Origin: Stutzerimonas nosocomialis
GTDB lineage: Bacteria > Pseudomonadota > Gammaproteobacteria > Pseudomonadales > Pseudomonadaceae
Direction: 5' to 3'
Length of the DNA: 64,000 nt
Assembly: GCF_005876855.1 (NCBI RefSeq)
Contig: NZ_QLAE01000003.1
Coordinates: forward strand, 1 to 64,000
A program made the position numbers and the translations under genes. The notes under the pieces were generated by a model that did not search any database, was not told the DNA's origin, and worked only from the letters and a program-made list of their open reading frames with translations. This document shows, piece by piece, positions 47,199 to 58,969 of the stretch. How positions within the stretch are numbered: position 1 is the stretch's first letter; every line of letters begins with the position of its first letter.

Positions 47199-48302
47199 TC
47201 AGAGGCGCACGCTGGCGAAGGTCGACTCGCTGCGCGCCCGGGTGAGCGCCGCCAGGGCCGAGGAGGTCGACGGCTGCGCCAGCTCCTCGCCGACCGGCAC
47301 CAGCGCCACCACGTTGCTGCGCACCTGGCCGGAACGCTCGTCGCGCGGCGGAATGCCGAAATACTCCCGGTAGCACTTGGAAAAATGCGGCGTGGAGACG
47401 AACCCGCAGACCGAGGCGACTTCGATGATCGACATCGGCGTCTGCTTGAGCAACTGGCGCGCGCGGATCAGGCGCAGCTTGAGGTAGTAGCGCGACGGCG
47501 AGCAGTGCAGGTACTTCTGGAACAACCGTTCGAGCTGGCGACGCGAGACGTCCACGTAGCAGGCCAGCTCGTCCAGATCGATCGGCTCCTCGAGGTTGGC
47601 CTCCATCAGCGCGACGATCTCCTGCAGCTTCGGCTGGTTGGTGCCGAGCATGTGCTTGAGCGGTACCCGCTGGTGGTCCTGCTCGTTGCGGATGCGCTCG
47701 TAGATGAACATCTCGGAGATGGCCGCCGCCAGCTCGCGCCCGTGCTGCTGGCCGATCAGGTGCAGCATCAGGTCCATCGGCGCGGTGCCGCCGGAGCAGG
47801 TGAAGCGGTCGCGGTCGATGACGAACAGCCGCGTGGTCAGCGCCACCCGCGGGAAGGCCTCCTGCATCGCCGCCAGGCATTCCCAGTGAACGCTGCACTC
47901 GTAGCCGTCGAGCAACCCGGCACGCGCCAGGGCCCAGCTGCCGGTGCACACCGCCGCCAGGCGACGGCCCTTGCGCGCCTGCGTCTGCAGCCAGCCCATG
48001 TGCTCGCGGCTGACCGCATGCTGGATGTCGACGCCGCCGCAGACGATGACCATGTCCAGGTCCGGCACGTCGGCGAAGGAGACGTCGGGGGTGATCTGCA
48101 AGCCGTCGCTGGCGCGCACCGGGCTGCCGTCCGGGCTCAGGGTGAGCCAGCGGTAGAGTTCGCGACCGGAAAGCTGGTTGGCCATGCGCAGCGGTTCGAC
48201 CGCCGAGGCCAGGGAGATCAGGGTGAAGTTGTCGAGCAACAAAAAGCCAATGGACTGGGGCTGCGCAGCAGTGGGCTGGATCTGGTTCGCTTGGGCCATC
48301 AT
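47199..48302 (-). CDS. gbdR: Choline/betaine catabolism activator GbdR
   Basis: A 367-residue GlxA/AraC-type activator which in P. aeruginosa responds to betaine and dimethylglycine and turns on gbc, dgc, sox, cbc and other genes. The N-terminal DJ-1-like domain has FLLLDNFTLISLASAVEPLRMANQL; the cysteine of AAVCTGSWALARAG is the nucleophile-elbow position. The C-terminal AraC domain (about residues 225-320) has VDVSRRQLERLFQKYL and VCGFVSTPHFSKCYREYFG. Two adjacent ATGs are possible (48302, 48299); the first gives 367 residues. A BetI-type palindrome lies about 100 bp upstream. It stops 2 bp from the convergent LysR stop. Confidence 0.95.
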   Translation of the reverse strand: MMAQANQIQPTAAQPQSIGFLLLDNFTLISLASAVEPLRMANQLSGRELYRWLTLSPDGSPVRASDGLQITPDVSFADVPDLDMVIVCGGVDIQHAVSREHMGWLQTQARKGRRLAAVCTGSWALARAGLLDGYECSVHWECLAAMQEAFPRVALTTRLFVIDRDRFTCSGGTAPMDLMLHLIGQQHGRELAAAISEMFIYERIRNEQDHQRVPLKHMLGTNQPKLQEIVALMEANLEEPIDLDELACYVDVSRRQLERLFQKYLHCSPSRYYLKLRLIRARQLLKQTPMSIIEVASVCGFVSTPHFSKCYREYFGIPPRDERSGQVRSNVVALVPVGEELAQPSTSSALAALTRARSESTFASVRL

Positions 48303-48323
48303 CGTCTCCTCACGCACAGGCGG

Positions 48324-48341
48324 CACCTCCTGCGGGAGGTG
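48324..48341 (-). other. Hairpin in the gbdR leader
   Basis: CACCTCC (48324-48330), TGCG loop, GGAGGTG (48335-48341): a perfect 7-bp stem in the gbdR 5' untranslated region, about 10-15 bp upstream of its GAGGAG ribosome site. The CCUCC arm could pair with that site instead. Confidence 0.4.
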
Positions 48342-48400
48342 GGCGGTCCGTCTGGCTCTGTGGCCAGTGGGCCAGGTGACGAAGCAATAGCTATGCCGTG

Positions 48401-48421
48401 ATTGATCGGCCGTTCAATAAA
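48401..48421. promoter_or_regulatory. BetI-type operator upstream of gbdR
   Basis: ATTGATCGGCCGTTCAATAA (48401-48420) differs at only two positions from the palindrome upstream of betI (55031 onward) and matches the established bet operator pattern ATTGAT-TGG-CGTTCAAT. CCGTG and CACGG flank it symmetrically. On the minus strand TTGAAC within it is a possible -35 with TAGCTA 18 bp downstream, so BetI bound here would block the gbdR promoter. Confidence 0.65.
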
Positions 48422-48642
48422 AACACGGCACGCATCGAAGCCCCGTGACAGAGCCCCGCGCACTGGCCATGCCCGCGCCCCCTCGGCGCGCCTCGGCAGA
48501 GCGGCTGGGAGTCTCGGTAGCAGCGCAGGAGCGGGCTGGGTAGCCGGAGCGGCACAACGGTAACGCCCGGCCAAAGGCCATCATGGCGCGGCGCGCAACC
48601 GCACCAAAATCACGCGAGCCGCAGGCCGGCGAGCACGCTTTT
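48422..48642. other. Remainder of the gbdR / L-serine dehydratase gap
   Basis: About 220 bp between the gbdR upstream region and the end of the dehydratase gene (both minus strand). No gene, T-tailed terminator or repeat is evident. It presumably carries sequence upstream of the gbdR promoter. Confidence 0.3.
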
Positions 48643-50019
48643 TCAGCACTCGATGGCGTTCACCGCCAGGCCGCCCCGGGAGGTTTCCTTGTACTTGTCA
48701 TGCATGTCGGCGCCGGTGTCGCGCATGGTGCGAATCACCCGGTCGAGCGAGATGAAGTGCTGGCCATCGCCGCGCAGGGCCATCTGCGCGGCGTTGATCG
48801 CCTTCACCGCGGCGATCGCGTTGCGCTCGATGCAGGGCACCTGGACCAGTCCGCCGACCGGGTCGCAGGTCAGCCCGAGGTTGTGCTCCAGGCCGATCTC
48901 GGCGGCGTTCTCCACCTGCTCGGGGGTGGCGCCCAGGACTTCGGCAAGCCCCGCCGCCGCCATCGCGCAGGCCGAGCCGACCTCGCCCTGACAACCGACC
49001 TCGGCCCCCGAAATGGAGGCGTTCTTCTTGCACAGCACGCCGATCGCCGCCGCGGCGAGGAAGAAGCGGACGATGTCGTCGTCGCAAGCATCGGGGTTGA
49101 ACTTGACGTAGTAGTGCAGCACCGCCGGGATGATGCCCGCCGCGCCGTTGGTGGGGGCGGTCACCATGCGCCCGCCGGCGGCGTTCTCCTCGTTGACCGC
49201 CAGGGCGAACAGGTTCACCCACTCCATTGCGCTCATGGTCGAGCCGATCACGTTGGGTTTGCCGAGCTCCTGCAGGCTGCGATGCAGCCGCGCGGCTCGG
49301 CGCCGTACGTTGAGCCCGCCCGGCAGCAGGCCTTCGTGGTGCAGGCCCTGGTTCACGCAGTCGCGCATCGCTTGCCAGAGGGTGAGCAGGCCGGCGCGAA
49401 TCTCGTCCTCGCTGCGCCAGGCCTTTTCGTTTTCCAGCATCAGCTGCGAGATGCTCAGGCCGTGGGCACGGCACAGCTCGAGGAGCTCGGCGGCGCTGGC
49501 GAAATCGTAGGGAAGCCGGGTGTCGTCGCTGTCCAGCACGCCGGTGGAGGCCTGCTCGGCATCAACCACGAAGCCGCCGCCGACCGAGTAGTAGGTGTCC
49601 CGGTGCAACTCGCCGCCCTCGCCTTCGGCCACCAGGGTCATGCCGTTGGGGTGGTACGGCAGGCTTTCGTCGAGCAGCAGCAGGTCGCGCTGCCAGTCGA
49701 AGGGGACCGGATGCTCGCAGTCCAGCAGCAGACGGCCCTCGCGCTTGAGCGTCTCGATGCGCGGACCGATGCAGGCCGGGTCGATGCGATCCGGCCACTC
49801 GCCCATCAGACCCATGACCACGGCGTTGTCGCTGCCATGCCCGACGCCGGTGGCCGACAGCGACCCGTACAGCCGCACCTCGAGCCGCGTCACGCGCTCG
49901 AGCAGGCGCCGCTCGCGCAACGCGCCGACGAACAGCGCCGCGGCGCGCATGGGCCCGACCGTATGGGAACTCGAAGGCCCGATGCCGATCTTGAACAGGT
50001 CGAAAACGCTGATAGCCAT
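48643..50019 (-). CDS. sda: L-serine ammonia-lyase (iron-sulfur type)
   Basis: A 458-residue single-chain [4Fe-4S] L-serine dehydratase converting serine to pyruvate and ammonia. The N-terminal domain starts [24 protein letters not shown]; the catalytic domain carries the cluster cysteines near [23 protein letters not shown] and [20 protein letters not shown]. It is the final step for betaine-derived carbon. It is next to gbdR, as in P. aeruginosa, where it belongs to the GbdR regulon. The ATG at 50019 matches the family start. Confidence 0.95.
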
Positions 50020-50947
50020 GCTCTGCTCCGCTCGCGCATCAAAGGTTGATTCGGACACTCATCATCGTGGTTTTCAGGCGGCGGCGACGTCCAGCACCGA
50101 CGTCTCCGTGCCCAAAACCGCCGACCGCTCCAGGGGCGGCAATACGCACGCTCGCGCTTGAAAAAAGGCGTCGCCAGGGTGGCCCTCTTTCGGCACCAAG
50201 ATGGGGGTCATCCCGATCGTTTCAAGCACCGAACGGGGTCGCCCGAATCACCCCGATCCGCCCTCATCCATCAAGGCTTTTGATCATTCGATCGCAATTA
50301 ATTTCAGTTTTTTCGATTCCGCCGCAGCCCCCGCCAGACGGCGGCCAGAGGCCATTAGGAAGGCTGCAAACCACGCCCGGCGCGGCTTCCAGCTTCCCCA
50401 CGGGGCAAAAACATCTGTTATGGTTTTTATAGGCAGGGCATGTCGTCGCCCAACACGTCAGGGTCGTAAACCGACAATTGCCGCGCCCCCAAGGCTATAT
50501 CGTTTGAGACAGCCGATTTCGTTTCTGTCGCACCGCGCGACGGGCCAAGGCCCACCACCTCGGCCCGAACACCATAAGGGGCGCACCTCCAGCAGCGGAG
50601 GCCTGCCTGACAACAATATTCGAAACTTCGCGCACCTCGGACGAGGTGTCCAGCGCCCAGGGATCGGGATTCGCAGCACTGCCAGAGGATACGGAAAGCG
50701 TTTTGAAGGGATGTGGTAAGAGCCGTCGCCCACTTTGTCCACCCACACGCAGTCCGGCGCATGCACCGCCGGCCGACGCGCCGTGGGTCACGGAGCAGGC
50801 CGAGCGGACGCTCCCCTTCACGCCCACCCGCCTCGCCCATGCGGACCCGCAAGGCAACAGCAGTCGGCATCAACCAGGTGCTGCGCCTGACCGGCGCCAT
50901 CGGACTTGCGCAACCGAACTGGATGTCTACTGAAGGGGAAACACTCC
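50020..50947. promoter_or_regulatory. Long divergent gap between sda and cbcV
   Basis: 928 bp without a supported gene, unusually long for this window. It must carry promoters of sda (minus) and cbcVWX-betX (plus). Two A+T-rich stretches stand out: about 50280-50325 (GCAATTAATTTCAGTTTTTT) and 50415-50435 (TTATGGTTTTTATAGG). TGTCGCA at 50526-50532 echoes the motif before gbcB and glyA. Short open frames on both strands here have no ribosome site and no family-like composition. Confidence 0.45.
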
Positions 50948-52144
50948 ATGCAACCTGGAAAGATCGTGGTGCAAAACCTTTACAAGGTTTTCGGAGAGCA
51001 CCCACAAGAGGCCATCGACCTGCTCAAGCAGGGGATGAGCAAGGAACAGATTCTCGCCGAGAAAGGCGCGGTGATCGGCGTCAGCGACGTCTCGTTCAGC
51101 GTCGAGGAAGGCGAGATCTTCGTCCTGATGGGGCTCTCCGGCTCCGGCAAATCCACCCTTATCCGGCTGATCAACCGACTCATCGAACCCTCGGCCGGTG
51201 ATGTCTTCATCGACGGCCAGAACGTCGCCAAGCTCCCCAAGGACCAGCTCATCGACCTGCGCCGCCGCGACATGAGCATGGTCTTCCAGTCCTTCGCCCT
51301 GATGCCCTCACGCACCGTGCTGGACAACGCCGCCTTCGGCCTCGAAGTGGCCGGCAAGGGCCGCCGCGAACGTGAAGAGCGCGCCATGGCGGTGCTGCGC
51401 CAGGTCGGCCTGGACACCTTCGCCGACAAGTTTCCCCACGAACTCTCCGGTGGCATGCAGCAACGCGTCGGCCTGGCCCGCGCACTGGCGGTCGACCCTT
51501 CAATGATCATCATGGACGAGGCCTTCTCGGCCCTCGACCCGCTCAAGCGCCGCGAGATGCAGGACATCCTGCTGGAGCTGCAGCGGACCCACCGCCGCAC
51601 CATCATCTTCGTCTCCCACGACATCGAAGAAGCCATGCGCATCGGCAACCGCATCGGGATCATGGAAGGCGGCCGGCTGGTGCAGGTCGGCACGCCCCAG
51701 GAGCTGATCGACAACCCCGCCAACGACTACGTGCGCAACTTCTTCGATACCGTCGACACCAGCCGCTACCTCACCGCCGGGCAGCTCAAGGCCGACAGCG
51801 TCCCGCTCTACGTGCACAACGGCAAGGCGCCGGATGCCCAGCAGGTCTGCCAGGACCTGCAGGCGCAGGACAAGCACTACGCCTTCGTGGTCGACGAGGA
51901 CAACAACTTCCGCGGCTCCATCAGCCTGGAGAAGCTCGCCCTGATGGTCGACGGCGGGCAGACCTGCAGCCTCGACGAGGAGGTGCTCAAGCAGATCGAC
52001 CCGGCACCCGAAGACCTGCCGCTGAACCAGGTGATCGAACGCCTGGTGGACAACGAGGGGCCGATTCCGGTGATCGATGGCGACGGGCGCTACAGCGGCG
52101 CCATCAGCAAGGGCCGCCTGTTGAGCCGGCTGCAGGGAGACTGA
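50948..52144 (+). CDS. cbcV: Choline/betaine/carnitine ABC transporter ATPase
   Basis: A 398-residue ATPase of the ProV/OpuAA group. Walker A GLSGSGKST is at residues 62-70; then the Q-loop MVFQSFALMP, signature LSGGMQQRVGLARAL, Walker B IIMDEAFSALDP, and the switch VSHDIEEAM. The C-terminal about 120 residues contain a CBS pair that in relatives senses ionic strength. With CbcW it forms the core serving several separate binding proteins. A 2-bp gap to cbcW implies translational coupling. Confidence 0.95.
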   Translation: MQPGKIVVQNLYKVFGEHPQEAIDLLKQGMSKEQILAEKGAVIGVSDVSFSVEEGEIFVLMGLSGSGKSTLIRLINRLIEPSAGDVFIDGQNVAKLPKDQLIDLRRRDMSMVFQSFALMPSRTVLDNAAFGLEVAGKGRREREERAMAVLRQVGLDTFADKFPHELSGGMQQRVGLARALAVDPSMIIMDEAFSALDPLKRREMQDILLELQRTHRRTIIFVSHDIEEAMRIGNRIGIMEGGRLVQVGTPQELIDNPANDYVRNFFDTVDTSRYLTAGQLKADSVPLYVHNGKAPDAQQVCQDLQAQDKHYAFVVDEDNNFRGSISLEKLALMVDGGQTCSLDEEVLKQIDPAPEDLPLNQVIERLVDNEGPIPVIDGDGRYSGAISKGRLLSRLQGD

Positions 52145-52146
52145 GC

Positions 52147-53037
52147 ATGAACGAGAAGAAGCTCGACCTGGGCAGCTGGGTCAACGATGCGGTGGAGCAC
52201 CTGCTGGAGAACTACGGCGGCGCCTTCGAAACCCTCGGCAGCGGCGTGGCGGCCTTTTCCGAAGCCATCGAGCGGGTCCTGATGCTGCCGCCGGCCTGGC
52301 TGCTGATCGCGATCTTCGTCGGCCTCGGCCTGTGGCGCATCGGTATCCGCTTCGCGATCTTCACCGCCGTGGCGATGGTGCTGATCGTGCTCACCGGTTT
52401 CTGGCAGCAGACGGTGGTGACCCTCGGCCTGACCTTCTCGGCCACCCTGATCAGCCTGCTGCTGGGCATTCCGCTCGGCATCTGGGCCGCGCGCAGCGAA
52501 CGGGTCGCCTTCGTCATCCGACCGATCCTCGACTTCATGCAGACCATGCCGGCCTTCGTCTACCTGATTCCGGCCGCCATGCTCTTCGGCCTCGGCCGGG
52601 TGCCGGGCATCTTCGCCACGGTGATCTTCGCCATGCCACCGGCGGTGCGCCTGACCAGCCTGGGCATCCGCCAGGTGAACAAGGAAATCGTCGAAGCCGG
52701 CCAGTCGTTCGGCTGCAACAGCCGTCAGCTGCTGTTCAAGGTGCAGCTGCCCAACGCCATGCCCTCGATCATGGCCGGGGTCAACCAGACCATCATGATG
52801 GCCCTGTCGATGGTGATCATCGCCTCGATGGTCGGCGCCGGTGGGCTGGGCAACGACGTGCTCGCCAGCATCCAGCGCCTGGACATTGGCCTGGGCTTCG
52901 AAAGCGGCATGGCCGTGGTGCTGCTGGCGATCATCCTCGACCGCATCACCGAAAGCTTCGGCACCCCGCGCACCGATACGCGCCGGGCGCGCTTCTACGG
53001 CTGGGTCAGCAGCCGGCTGCGCATGCAGCGCCAGTAG
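52147..53037 (+). CDS. cbcW: Choline/betaine/carnitine ABC transporter permease
   Basis: A 296-residue inner-membrane permease of the ProW/OpuAB type. Hydrophobic segments begin at about residue 50. The cytoplasmic loop EAGQSFGCNSRQLLFKVQLPNAMPSIMAGVNQ contains the EAA motif that contacts the ATPase. MMALSMVIIASMVGAGGLG is the conserved helix following it. It is the only quaternary-amine permease in the window. The operon continues into cbcX after 33 bp. Confidence 0.95.
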   Translation: MNEKKLDLGSWVNDAVEHLLENYGGAFETLGSGVAAFSEAIERVLMLPPAWLLIAIFVGLGLWRIGIRFAIFTAVAMVLIVLTGFWQQTVVTLGLTFSATLISLLLGIPLGIWAARSERVAFVIRPILDFMQTMPAFVYLIPAAMLFGLGRVPGIFATVIFAMPPAVRLTSLGIRQVNKEIVEAGQSFGCNSRQLLFKVQLPNAMPSIMAGVNQTIMMALSMVIIASMVGAGGLGNDVLASIQRLDIGLGFESGMAVVLLAIILDRITESFGTPRTDTRRARFYGWVSSRLRMQRQ

Positions 53038-53070
53038 CCCATTCCGCCAAGCCCTCGCCAAGGAGTTTTC

Positions 53071-54015
53071 ATGAACGCATCGAAGCACGTCGCCGCCCTC
53101 GGCCTGGCCTGCATGGCCCTGGCCGGCGGCGCCTGGGCCCAGGAGCCACAGAGTTGCCAGAAGGTCCGCTTCGCCGAGATCGGCTGGGCCGACATCGCCG
53201 CCACCACCGGCGTGGCGATGACCCTGACCGAAGCGCTGGGCTACCAGCCGAGCAAGATCATGGCCTCGGTGCCGATCGCCTTCACCGGGGTGAAGAACAA
53301 GCAGATCGACGCCTTCCTCGGCTACTGGGCGCCCTCGATGGACTCGATCATCGAGCCCTTCATCCGGGACGGTTCGGTCAAGGTGCTCGAGACGCCCAAC
53401 CTGACCGGCGCCAAGTACACCCTCGCCGTGCCCACCTATGCCGCCGAGGCGGGCCTCACGAGCTTCGAGGACATCGCCCGGTTCAAGGACCCGCTCGACG
53501 GCAAGATCTACGGCATCGAGCCGGGCAACGACGGCAACCTGCTGATCGAGCAGATGATCAAGGCCGACCAGTTCGGCCTCGGCGACTTCAAGCTGGTCGA
53601 GTCCAGCGAGGCCGGCATGCTGGTGCAGGTGTCGCGGGCGATCAAACGCAAGCAGCCGGTGGTCTTTCTCGGCTGGGCGCCGCACCCGATGAACACCCAG
53701 TACGACCTGACCTACCTCGACGGCGGTGACGACGTGTTCGGCCCCGACTTCGGCGCGGCCCAGGTCTACACCGTGGTGCCGCCGGACTATCAGACGCGCT
53801 GCGCCAACGTCGGCAAGCTGCTCGACAACCTGCGGTTCAGCGTCGAGATGGAAAGCCAGCTGATGGAAAAGGTCCTCGACAAGCAGGACCCCGCCCGTGT
53901 CGCCCGGGACTGGATCAAGGCCAACCCGCAGGTCCTGGACCAGTGGCTCGAGGGCGTCACCACCTTCGACGGCCAGGACGGCGCCAGCGCCGTGAAACGG
54001 TACGTCGGCCTCTGA
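53071..54015 (+). CDS. cbcX: Choline-binding periplasmic protein
   Basis: A 314-residue OpuAC-type binding protein with a signal peptide ending GGAWA-QE. IGWADIAATTGVAMTLTEALGY, FLGYWAPSMDSIIEPF and FLGWAPHPMNTQYD supply the aromatic box for the trimethylammonium head. It is the CbcX of the cbcVWX operon, choline-specific in P. aeruginosa. It is close in sequence style to CaiX (32.7 kb) and ChoX (43.7 kb). AAGGAG precedes the ATG. Confidence 0.93.
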   Translation: MNASKHVAALGLACMALAGGAWAQEPQSCQKVRFAEIGWADIAATTGVAMTLTEALGYQPSKIMASVPIAFTGVKNKQIDAFLGYWAPSMDSIIEPFIRDGSVKVLETPNLTGAKYTLAVPTYAAEAGLTSFEDIARFKDPLDGKIYGIEPGNDGNLLIEQMIKADQFGLGDFKLVESSEAGMLVQVSRAIKRKQPVVFLGWAPHPMNTQYDLTYLDGGDDVFGPDFGAAQVYTVVPPDYQTRCANVGKLLDNLRFSVEMESQLMEKVLDKQDPARVARDWIKANPQVLDQWLEGVTTFDGQDGASAVKRYVGL

Positions 54016-54094
54016 TCGATCGCCAAGGTCCCTGGCGCGCCTTTGCACGCCAGGGACGGCTACGCCTTTCGAACATCCCACAAGGAGCAACACC

Positions 54095-54949
54095 ATGAGC
54101 ATGATCAAGAACGCCGTCCGGGGCCTGGGCGTCGCCTGCCTGGCACTGGGCATGAACGCGGCCATGGCGGCGGACAAGCCGGCCCTGAAGATCGGCTACG
54201 TCAATGGCTGGGACGACAGCGTCGCCGCCACCCACGTCGCCGGGGAAATCCTGCAGAGCAGGCTCGGCTATCCCGTCACCCTGCAGGCGGTCGAACCCGC
54301 GATCATGTGGCAGGGCATCGCCCGCGGCGACCTCGATGTCACCCTGTCGGCCTGGCTGCCCGCCACCCACGGCGAGTACTTCGAAAAGCTCAAGGACCGC
54401 GTGACGGTGCTCGGTAGCAACTACGAAGGCGCCAAGATCGGCCTGGTGGTACCGGAAAGCTTCGCTGCCAGGAGCATCGAGGACCTCAACGACTATGCCG
54501 ACCAGCTGGACGGCAAGATCACCGGCATCGACGCCGGCGCCGGCGTGATGCGCCGCACCGAGGATGCGATCAAGGAATACGGCCTGAACCTGCGCCTGAT
54601 GCCCAGCTCCGGCCCGGGCATGGCCACCGCCCTGTCGCGTGCGATGAAGGCCGACAAGCCGATCGTGGTCACCAGCTGGATTCCGCACTGGATGTTCGCG
54701 CAATGGAAACTGCGCTTCCTGGAAGACCCGAAGAACGTCTTCGGCGAGGCCGAGCACGTCGACACCGTGGCCAATCCCGGCCTGGCGGCCAAGGCACCGG
54801 AAGCCGAAGCCTTCCTGAAGAAATTCAGCTGGTCGGCCGAGGAAGTCGGCGCGGTGATGCTCGCCATCCGTGACGGCGCCAGCCCCGAGGCCGCCGCCAA
54901 GCAGTGGATCGAGGCCAATCCCGAGCGCGTCGACGGCTGGCTTGAGTAA
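54095..54949 (+). CDS. betX: Glycine-betaine-binding periplasmic protein (BetX-like)
   Basis: A 284-residue binding protein with signal peptide (MNAAMA-AD). It is of a different branch from CbcX: LKIGYVNGWDDSVAATHVAGEIL, EPAIMWQGIARGDLDVTLSAWLPATHGEYFEKLKD and SWIPHWMFAQWKLRF match the betaine-binding OpuAC/ProX-like type. In P. aeruginosa BetX is encoded elsewhere and uses CbcWV; here its likely counterpart is the fourth gene of the cbc operon. AAGGAG precedes the ATG. The symbol is assigned by family and context, and substrate preference is untested. Confidence 0.8.
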   Translation: MSMIKNAVRGLGVACLALGMNAAMAADKPALKIGYVNGWDDSVAATHVAGEILQSRLGYPVTLQAVEPAIMWQGIARGDLDVTLSAWLPATHGEYFEKLKDRVTVLGSNYEGAKIGLVVPESFAARSIEDLNDYADQLDGKITGIDAGAGVMRRTEDAIKEYGLNLRLMPSSGPGMATALSRAMKADKPIVVTSWIPHWMFAQWKLRFLEDPKNVFGEAEHVDTVANPGLAAKAPEAEAFLKKFSWSAEEVGAVMLAIRDGASPEAAAKQWIEANPERVDGWLE

Positions 54950-55027: not shown

Positions 55028-55051
55028 TTTATTGATTGGTCGTTCAATAAA
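55028..55051 (+). promoter_or_regulatory. BetI operator at the betIBA promoter
   Basis: TTTATTGA (55028-55035) and TCAATAAA (55044-55051) form a perfect 8-bp inverted repeat around TTGGTCGT, matching the established bet operator of other proteobacteria. TTGATT (-35 candidate, 55032-55037) and TGCTAG (-10 candidate, 55055-55060) are 17 bp apart, so BetI would cover its own promoter until choline releases it. Confidence 0.85.
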
Positions 55052-55093: not shown

Positions 55094-55687
55094 ATGCCCA
55101 AGCTCGGAATGCAGCCCATCCGACGCAAGCAGTTGATCCACGCCACCCTCGAAGCGGTGGACCAGGTCGGCATGAGCGACGCCAGCATCGCCATGATCGC
55201 CCGCCTCGCCGGCGTCTCGAACGGCATCATCAGCCACTACTTCCAGGACAAGAACGGCCTGCTCGAAGCCACCATGCGCCACCTGATGAAGGCGCTGAAC
55301 CAGGCCGTGCGCGACCGCCGGGCACAGCTGCCCGACGACGATCCGCGCGCTCATCTCAAGGCCATCATCGACGGCAACTTCGACGACAGCCAGGTGAACG
55401 GCCCGGCCATGAAAACCTGGCTGGCCTTCTGGGCGACCAGCATGCACCAGCCGTCCCTGCGCCGCCTGCAGCGCATCAACGACCACCGTCTCTATTCCAA
55501 CCTGTGCGGCCAGTTCCACCGCTGCCTGCCGCCGGACCAGGCACGCGCGGCCGCCCGCGGGCTCGCTGCCCTGATCGACGGGCTGTGGTTGCGCGGCGCC
55601 TTGTCGGGAGATGACTTCGACATCGACCAGGCGCTGAGCCTGGCCTACGAATACCTCGACCAGCAGCTGGCCAAGCAGCCCGGCTGA
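55094..55687 (+). CDS. betI: Choline-responsive repressor BetI
   Basis: A 197-residue TetR-family repressor. The helix-turn-helix [34 protein letters not shown] spans about residues 36-70, and the start [26 protein letters not shown] is the family N-terminus. The C-terminal domain binds choline. It is first gene of betIBA and has its operator 43 bp upstream. CGGAG precedes the ATG. Confidence 0.95.
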
Positions 55688-55750: not shown

Positions 55751-57223
55751 ATGCCTCGATTGCCCCAGCAACGCCTCTACATCGGCGGCCAGTACGTCGA
55801 CGCCACCGGCACCGCCACCTTCCAGAGCATCAACCCGGCCAACGGCGACGTGCTCGCCGAGCTGCAGCAGGCGAGCCGCGCCGATGTCGACCGCGCCGTC
55901 GCCAGCGCCGCCGAAGGACAGAAGGTCTGGGCGGCGATGACCGCCGTCGAGCGCTCGCGCATCCTGCGCCGTGCGGTGGATATCCTGCGCGAGCGCAACG
56001 ACGAGCTGGCCGAACTGGAAACCCTGGACACCGGCAAACCGCTCTCGGAAACCCGCGCGGTGGATATCGTCACCGGCGCCGACGTGCTCGAGTACTACGC
56101 CGGGCTGGTTCCGGCGATCGAGGGCGAGCAGATCCCGCTGCGCGACAGTTCGTTCGTCTACACCCGCCGCGAGCCGCTGGGCGTGGTCGCCGGGATCGGC
56201 GCCTGGAACTACCCGATCCAGATCGCGCTGTGGAAATCGGCGCCGGCCCTGGCCGCCGGCAACGCGATGATCTTCAAGCCCAGCGAAGTGACCTCCCTGA
56301 CCACCCTCAGGCTCGCCGAGATCTACAGCGAGGCGGGCCTGCCCGACGGCGTGTTCAACGTGCTGACCGGCAGCGGCGCCGAAGTGGGCCAGTGGCTGAC
56401 CGAGCATCCGGGTATCGAGAAGATCTCCTTCACCGGCGGCACCGTCACCGGCAAGCAGGTCATGGCCAGCGCATCCGCCTCGACGCTCAAGGAAGTCACC
56501 CTGGAGCTGGGCGGCAAGTCACCGCTGATCGTCTTCGAGGACGCCGATCTCAACCGCGCCGCCGACATCGCGATGATGGCCAACTTCTACAGTACCGGCC
56601 AGGTCTGCACCAACGGCACCCGGGTGTTCGTCCCCCGCGCGCTGCTGTCGCGCTTCGAGGGCAAGCTGCTGGAGCGCATCAGGCGCATCCGTCTGGGTGA
56701 CCCGCTGGACGAGCGGACCAACTTCGGCCCCCTGACCAGCTTCGCCCACCTGAAGAAAGTGCTCGGCTATATCGCAACCGGCCGCCAGCAGGGCGCACGC
56801 CTGCTCTGTGGCGGCCATCGGGTCGAGGACGGCGAGCTCGCCAGGGGTGCCTACGTGGCGCCCACGGTATTCAGCGACTGCACGGACGAGATGACCATCG
56901 CCCGCGAGGAGATCTTCGGCCCGGTGATGAGCCTGCTGGTCTACGACGACGAGGAGGAGGTCATTCGCCGCGCCAACGACACCGAATACGGCCTGGCCGC
57001 CGGCATCGTGACCCGCGACCTGGCCCGTGCGCACCGGGTGATCCATCGCCTGCAAGCCGGAATCTGCTGGATCAACACCTGGGGCGAATCCCCCGCGCAG
57101 ATGCCCGTGGGCGGCTACAAGCAGTCCGGTGTCGGTCGCGAGAACGGGCTGACCACCCTGGCCCAATACACTCGAATCAAATCGGTGCAGGTGGAGCTCG
57201 GCGACTTCGCCTCGGTCTTCTGA
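55751..57223 (+). CDS. betB: Betaine aldehyde dehydrogenase
   Basis: A 490-residue NAD(P)-dependent aldehyde dehydrogenase giving glycine betaine from betaine aldehyde. The catalytic Cys286 is in [13 protein letters not shown] and the general base Glu252 in [18 protein letters not shown] is the coenzyme loop. Length and the start [16 protein letters not shown] match the pseudomonad enzyme, a potassium-dependent tetramer. A GGAGAGA ribosome site precedes it, 63 bp after betI. Confidence 0.96.
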
Positions 57224-57259
57224 ACAGCCACACGCTGCAAGCTTCCGAAGGTGCTGCCC

Positions 57260-58969
57260 ATGGAATACGACTACATCATCATCGGCGCCGGCTCGGCGGG
57301 GAATGTCCTGGCCGCGCGGCTGACCGAAGACGCGGACGTCAGGGTCCTGCTGCTCGAAGCCGGCGGCCCCGACTACCGGCTGGATTTCCGCACCCAGATG
57401 CCCGCCGCCCTCGCCTTCCCCTTGCAGGGACGGCGCTACAACTGGGCCTACGAAACCGAGTCCGAACCGTACATGGACAACCGCCGCATGGAGTGTGGCC
57501 GCGGCAAGGGGCTGGGCGGCTCCTCGCTGATCAACGGCATGTGCTACATCCGCGGCAATGCCCTGGACTACGACAACTGGGCCCAGGCGCCGGGGCTCGA
57601 GGACTGGACCTACCACGACTGCCTGCCCTACTTCCGCAAGGCCGAGACCCGGGACATCGGCCCCAACGACTACCACGGCGGCGACGGCCCGGTGCACGTC
57701 ACCACCCCCAGGGCCGGCAACAACCCGCTGTTCCGCGCCATGGTGGAGGCCGGCGTCCAGGCCGGTTATCCGGCGACCGACGACCTCAACGGCTACCAGC
57801 AGGAAGGCTTCGGCCCGATGGACCGCACGGTGACACCCGAAGGGCGACGCGCCAGCACCGCCCGCGGCTACCTGGACAGGGCCCGCGAGCGGCCGAACCT
57901 GACCGTCGTCACCCACGCCCTGACCGATCGCATCCTCTTCAGCGGCAAGCGCGCCAACGGCGTGGCCTACCTGCAGGGCAACGGCGACGTGCCCAAGGTG
58001 GTCCATGCGCAACGGGAAGTCCTGCTCTGCGCCGGCGCGATCGCTTCGCCGCAGATCCTGCAGCGCTCGGGCGTCGGCCCGGCGACGCTGCTGCGCGAGC
58101 TGGGCATCCCGCTGGTGCACGACCTGCCCGGCGTCGGCCAGAACCTGCAGGACCACCTGGAGATGTACCTGCAGTACAGCTGCAAGCAACCGGTCTCGCT
58201 GTATCCGGCATTGCAGTGGTGGAACCAGCCGCAGATCGGCGCGCAGTGGATGTTCCTCGGCACCGGCATCGGCGCGAGCAACCAGTTCGAGGCGGGCGGC
58301 TTCATCCGCAGCAGCGCCGAATTCGCCTGGCCCAACATCCAGTTCCACTTCCTGCCGGTGGCGATCAATTACAACGGCACCAACGCGGTGAAGGAACACG
58401 GCTTCCAGGCCCACGTCGGCTCGATGCGCTCACCCAGCCGAGGGCGCGTGCAGGTGAAATCCCGCGACCCGCGCGAACACCCGAGCATCCTCTTCAACTA
58501 CATGAGCGCCGAGCAGGACTGGCGCGAGTTTCGCGACGCGATCCGCATCACCCGGGAGATCATGCAGCAGCCGGCGCTGGACGCTTACCGTGGCCGCGAG
58601 ATCAGCCCGGGGCCGGACTGCCGGAGCGATGCCGAGCTGGACGCCTTCGTCCGCCGCCACGCCGAAACCGCCTACCACCCGTCCTGCTCCTGCAAGATGG
58701 GCCTGGACGAGATGGCGGTGGTCGACGGCCAGGGCCGGGTGCACGGCCTCGAAGGGCTGAGGGTGGTCGACGCCTCGATCATGCCGCTGATCACCACCGG
58801 CAACCTCAACGCGCCGACCATCATGCTGGCCGAGAAGATCGCCGACCGGATCCGCGGACGCACCCCGCTGCCGCGCAGCGACGCGCCCTACTTCGTCGCC
58901 GGCGACCGCCCGGCCCGCCTGCGGGCGGAACCGCCGGAAATCGCCAGCGAACTGCCGCAGCCGGCCTGA
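57260..58969 (+). CDS. betA: Choline dehydrogenase
   Basis: A 569-residue membrane-associated GMC oxidoreductase oxidising choline to betaine aldehyde. The FAD fold [18 protein letters not shown] starts at residue 4, with GMC signatures [15 protein letters not shown] and [16 protein letters not shown]. The active-site histidine is in [13 protein letters not shown], and [18 protein letters not shown] closes the FAD site. A GTG three codons upstream is an alternative start. It is the last gene of betIBA, and a strong terminator follows. Confidence 0.96.

Follow-up and report, generated by a model that had tools for sequence, protein, structure and literature searches.

The operators of BetI described in E. 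coli, Acinetobacter baylyi and Pseudomonas include those of betIBA and of betT-type transporter genes, at which BetI control is relieved by choline (PMC7876524). The effect of choline on BetI differs between species, and in A. baylyi the repressor leaves the DNA when choline is present (PMC7876524). A BetI site upstream of betT1 in P. synxantha 2-79 resembles the sites of P. aeruginosa, E. coli and Ensifer meliloti (PMC12442406). The targets of betIBA/betT-type operators are genes for enzymes and transporters, whereas gbdR encodes an activator of catabolism. One gbdR promoter has been described as a BetI target. In P. aeruginosa, the promoter was reported to be repressed by BetI and dependent on sigma54 (Sanchez, Primo, Damiani and Lisa 2017, Microbiology 163:1343). 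RpoN, together with CbrB and NtrC, is described as activating gbdR, and BetI as repressing it in the absence of choline (PMC10418997). According to a 2026 paper, PvrA also represses gbdR of P. aeruginosa directly (PMC13415123). The locus analyzed here lies in a 64,000-nucleotide stretch of Stutzerimonas DNA (the window) and compares closely with that of P. aeruginosa, having the same gene, the same predicted repressor and the same promoter class. The original prediction had offered the link between BetI and gbdR as a departure from the usual description of GbdR. Since this control was published for P. aeruginosa in 2017, the present finding is a rediscovery in another genus. It is essentially correct and not new, and what is added is the comparative extent and the anatomy of the site.

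The gbdR gene occupies 47199-48302 on the reverse strand. Its product, an activator of betaine catabolism from the AraC family, scores 648.1 bits in the NCBIfam equivalog model NF052371, for which the cut-off is 480. The gene starts with two tandem ATGs, the first at 48302, and the encoded protein is 98% identical to GbdR of Stutzerimonas azotifigens (L007). The upstream neighbor, also on the reverse strand, is a gene for an sdaB-like L-serine ammonia-lyase (48643-50058, TIGR00720). Between gbdR and betI, the genes of a choline/betaine-type ABC transporter extend over 50906-54949 on the forward strand and encode an ATPase, a permease and two substrate-binding proteins. Family cut-offs are passed by the ATPase and by one of the binding proteins, the first, whereas the permease and the other binding protein fall short of theirs. 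This second binding protein, encoded at 54095-54949 directly before betI, is of a divergent choline type (162.6 bits against a cut-off of 379.05). The same genome encodes an orthologue of BetI, the choline-responsive repressor of the TetR family, at 55094-55687 on the forward strand (258.8 bits in the equivalog model TIGR03384, cut-off 201.3). Family matches place betB, for betaine-aldehyde dehydrogenase, at 55751-57223 and betA, for choline dehydrogenase, at 57251-58969 on the same strand.

The predicted BetI-type operator of gbdR is an 18-bp palindrome at 48401-48418, which reads ATTGAACGGCCGATCAAT on the gbdR (reverse) strand, with 98 bp separating it from the start codon of gbdR at 48302. 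The Stutzerimonas sequence has one clear palindrome of this kind, whereas the gbdR promoter of P. aeruginosa reportedly has two overlapping putative BetI sites. The palindrome had been described as a near-copy of the betIBA promoter site with two differences in about 21 positions, and the comparison confirmed this description. The sequence ATTGATCGGCCGTTCAATAAA at 48401-48421 and the sequence ATTGATTGGTCGTTCAATAAA at 55031-55051, in the betI promoter, are identical at 19 of 21 positions. Comparison of the 18-bp core with its reverse complement shows symmetry at 16 of the 18 positions before gbdR and at 12 of 18 in the betI copy. A search of the window with this core, allowing up to three mismatches, returned three matches at two places. 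These are the gbdR site itself, on both strands, and the reference operator of the betIBA promoter (55031-55048, forward strand); the chance expectation for such a search is 0.05 matches. The looser arm pattern ATTGA-N7-TTCAAT, with up to two mismatches, gave six matches in the window against 2.33 expected, a number reached in 5 of 100 shuffles. The arm pattern is much less discriminating than the core.

Across all 4.76 Mb of the genome, the operator consensus, ATTGAWYGNNCRWTCAAT, occurs with at most one mismatch at three places, before gbdR, betI and ectA. The reversed control of this consensus gave zero matches in the same genome at the same threshold. Among relatives, a slightly different pattern with at most one mismatch yielded at least one operator-like match in 30 of 58, including some without gbdR. 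Single operator-like matches at this threshold are not rare. In one genome (G003), a match with no mismatch sits within a reading frame; taken as a chance occurrence, it indicates that single perfect matches arise without function. A larger operator bounded by the outer repeat TGCCGTG...CACGGCA was also considered and was dropped, as S. azotifigens keeps the operator and is without the distal arm, the comparison of this arm having been made in S. azotifigens alone.

Both arms of the gbdR palindrome are shared with the betI operator of the same genome. This bears on the idea that the palindrome belongs to another TetR-type regulator and resembles a BetI site by coincidence. PvrA is a member of the TetR family and has been reported to bind the gbdR promoter of P. 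aeruginosa and repress it (PMC13415123), but the reported PvrA motif, CGGTCA/TGACCG, is absent from 48401-48418. An operator of PvrA or of a similar regulator is very improbable at this position, and BetI is the repressor to which we assign the palindrome.

The class of promoter that adjoins the operator can be read from the gbdR strand, where the sequence across both elements is TTTTTATTGAACGGCCGATCAATCACGGCATAGCTATTGCTT. The operator ends, two base pairs follow, and the element CGGCATAGCTATTGCT begins (48382-48397, reverse strand), which has the GG-N10-GC form of a sigma54 -24/-12 promoter. The breadth of this arrangement was examined in relatives. The scan for relatives of GbdR gave at least 566 confirmed stretches, of which the best 80 were used; one of them (L063) came without upstream DNA and was left out, so that 79 relatives and the window made up 80 upstream regions. 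The sigma54 pattern GGCAYRNNNNTTGC, which was picked after inspecting sites, is present exactly once between -400 and -60 in all 80 of these regions, taken from the best 80 of at least 566 stretches.

The palindrome had originally been placed over a plausible -35 box, which would make BetI a repressor acting on the -35 region of a sigma70 promoter. The palindrome does contain TTGAAC, a -35-like hexamer. A scan for sigma70-like promoters, in which -35 and -10 hexamers had to be spaced 16-18 bp apart, found none in 48280-48660, and it found none at the betI promoter either. Since the scan is silent at betI too, its weight is modest, and the argument for sigma54 rests mainly on conservation. The conserved element in every upstream region is the sigma54 pattern, at a near-fixed distance from the operator, and the gbdR promoter of P. 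aeruginosa has been published as sigma54-dependent (Sanchez et al. 2017). A sigma70 promoter with BetI over its -35 box has very little chance of being the correct description. The operator probably does not cover a -35 box, the adjoining element being of the sigma54 type, and this detail of the original prediction is not supported.

The operator pattern ATTGAWYGNNCRWTCAAT was derived from the sites of the window genome and the matches of relatives, and it was fixed before the 80 loci were scanned. With gaps of 1 to 5 bp permitted between operator and box, an operator with at most three mismatches lies upstream of the sigma54 box in 74 of the 80 regions. The gap is 2 bp in 49 regions and 3 bp in 25. 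Fourteen of the 74 operators have no mismatch, 45 have one, 10 have two and 5 have three; among shuffled flanks treated identically, 1 of 8000 had a site with three mismatches or fewer. An alignment of gbdR upstream regions had been proposed as a check on the palindrome, and its outcome is positive. The order of elements is the same in P. aeruginosa PA7 (L047), in which an operator with one mismatch is followed, after a 2-bp gap, by the sigma54 box. An alternative, overlapping sigma54 box in the PA7 sequence would give a gap of 7 bp.

An exact match to the composite, operator plus sigma54 box, is present in 182 of 398 Pseudomonadaceae genomes, and the reversed control in none. By comparison, gbdR was found at E <= 1e-120 in 262 of the 398, with five candidates scored in each genome listed. 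A row-by-row reading of the Stutzerimonas genomes places the composite in 11 of 13 that have gbdR and in 0 of 43 that are without it. The two genomes with gbdR and no composite are G008 and G004, and in G004 the gene is at a contig edge. Outside Stutzerimonas, at least one genome that has the composite (G382) gave no gbdR match at the threshold used. The composite was absent from all 140 Pseudomonadales genomes outside Pseudomonadaceae (145 were searched, and 5 of these belong to the family).

Not every gbdR locus follows the rule. The gbdR operator is absent in 6 of the 80 regions (L046, L048, L051, L053, L056 and L060), and the sigma54 box is kept in each. All six genomes encode betI. Since the operator can be absent where BetI and the sigma54 box are retained, BetI control is not obligatory. 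Three of the six (L051, L053 and L056) are P. oryzihabitans records, and the promoter sequences of L046 and L048 are similar to theirs. In these five genomes, a perfect operator precedes the betI start by 68-70 bp, and in L060 the site that fits best at betI has a single mismatch. That five relatives with betI and its perfect operator manage without a gbdR operator would fit a site that binds BetI in the window genome and yet has no regulatory effect there. However, the near-fixed spacing of 2-3 bp in 74 of 80 regions suggests selection for placement of the operator against the promoter, and a site without effect is very unlikely. A regulatory operator is the reading that we prefer.

Departures were also seen at betI itself. 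At 9 of 30 betI loci (L172, L183, L184 and L187-L192), the best match within 400 bp of betI has five or more mismatches. The same nine genomes have gbdR operators with at most one mismatch, and their betI genes without a nearby operator may sit inside a longer operon. A second betI-like gene is present in 4 of the 31 genomes examined for betI. In 1 of the 31 (G449, the genome of L057), betI was not found, and the gbdR operator is present.

A sigma54 promoter of this kind would be expected to have sites for NtrC or CbrB and for IHF further upstream. In P. aeruginosa, gbdR is described as being under the control of NtrC/CbrB and IHF. A consensus scan that covered 8 of the 80 regions found only NtrC-like matches upstream of gbdR in the window, each with 4-5 mismatches, and no match to the CbrB or IHF consensus there. 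Two blocks, TGCTACCGA and TTTTGGYGCR, are conserved. With at most one mismatch, each is present in 70 of the 80 regions, compared with 5 and 4 of 80 after shuffling, and they are positioned roughly 120-140 bp and 180-300 bp upstream of the -24 element. These blocks may be activator sites, and the consensus motifs that were tried match neither of them. The motif GTTACCG says little, as it is present in 79 of 80 gbdR upstream regions and also in 35 of 80 shuffled ones. Downstream of the promoter, the gbdR leader has a perfect 7-bp hairpin at 48324-48341 (CACCTCC, 4 nt, GGAGGTG) shortly before the ribosome-binding site, and S. azotifigens has it as well. Perfect hairpins of at least 6 pairs occur in the last 90 bp of the leader in 15 of the 80 regions.

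With these elements in place, 48401-48418 is very probably a BetI operator at the upstream edge of the gbdR sigma54 promoter, through which choline would gate gbdR. The positions from -29 to -46 overlap the upstream part of the footprint expected for sigma54-RNA polymerase. In the absence of choline, a BetI dimer, or a pair of dimers, would lie over about -29 to -46 and keep gbdR off. BetI could do so by blocking the sigma54 polymerase, or by blocking the contact that a looped NtrC or CbrB activator makes with the polymerase. In the presence of choline, repression by BetI would be lifted, and gbdR could be transcribed if nitrogen or carbon limitation provides NtrC or CbrB. GbdR itself would then require betaine or dimethylglycine for activity. 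The BetI gate followed by the effector requirement of GbdR would thus place the demethylation pathway behind two gates in series. The operator and the sigma54 box, as well as their conservation and near-fixed spacing, are direct observations. Repression by BetI in the absence of choline and the control by NtrC/CbrB and IHF come from work on P. aeruginosa, and their extension to this Stutzerimonas, like the steric detail, is proposed. The central claim of the original prediction, that BetI directly represses gbdR and so joins the choline and betaine steps in one hierarchy, draws support from the operator match, from conservation at a fixed spacing and from the P. aeruginosa publication.

The third operator of the genome is a perfect BetI-type site, ATTGAACGCTCGATCAAT, 152 bp upstream of the ectA start (contig C1 28147-28164; 1501-1518 of locus L001). 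The S. azotifigens genome has ATTGAACGCGCAATCAAT at -151 of ectA (L120, L135), and the ectA intergenic regions of the two genomes are identical at 492 of 661 aligned positions. EctA was found in 56 of 56 Stutzerimonas genomes searched. Coverage of these genomes for the operator consisted of 30 fetched loci and six whole-genome scans. In the other 28 of the 30 fetched loci, no operator was found within three mismatches in 600 bp, and the whole-genome scans of G011, G016, G025, G029, G031 and G036, at up to one mismatch, gave no match near ectA. The hexamer TTGAGA, known as the -35 element of the ect promoter of P. stutzeri A1501 (PMC5924519), is found in 26 of the 29 distinct regions aligned, and its distance downstream from the operator is 67 bp (66 bp in S. 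azotifigens). That the site lies upstream of the core promoter points to modulation more than to simple blocking. Among the titles listed for BetI with ectoine, none was recognized as reporting BetI at an ect promoter, and the ectoine review PMC5924519 mentions BetI 0 times.

In the lineage of this Stutzerimonas, whose nearest named relative is S. azotifigens, BetI may have gained the ectoine operon as a third target, a tentative reading that we hold to be slightly less probable than its opposite. Against it stand the close relationship of the two genomes, the position of the site clear of the core promoter, and the occurrence of chance matches such as that in G003. At the same locus, EctA and EctB are encoded in a single open reading frame with no stop between them (2-1366 of L001, reverse strand). 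Open frames of 609-627 amino acids are present at ectA in several Stutzerimonas genomes, and a fusion of EctA with EctB or a read-through is possible.

Repressors are uncommon at sigma54 promoters such as the one proposed for gbdR. The relatives that have betI and have lost the gbdR operator provide a natural test of this control. If the ectA operator is functional, the two main osmoprotectant pathways would be joined under one choline sensor. Choline would then be coupled to the synthesis of betaine, to its breakdown through gbdR, and to the choice between betaine and ectoine. For the family, the prediction is a choline gate on the master activator of betaine breakdown in most of the gbdR-bearing Pseudomonadaceae examined.
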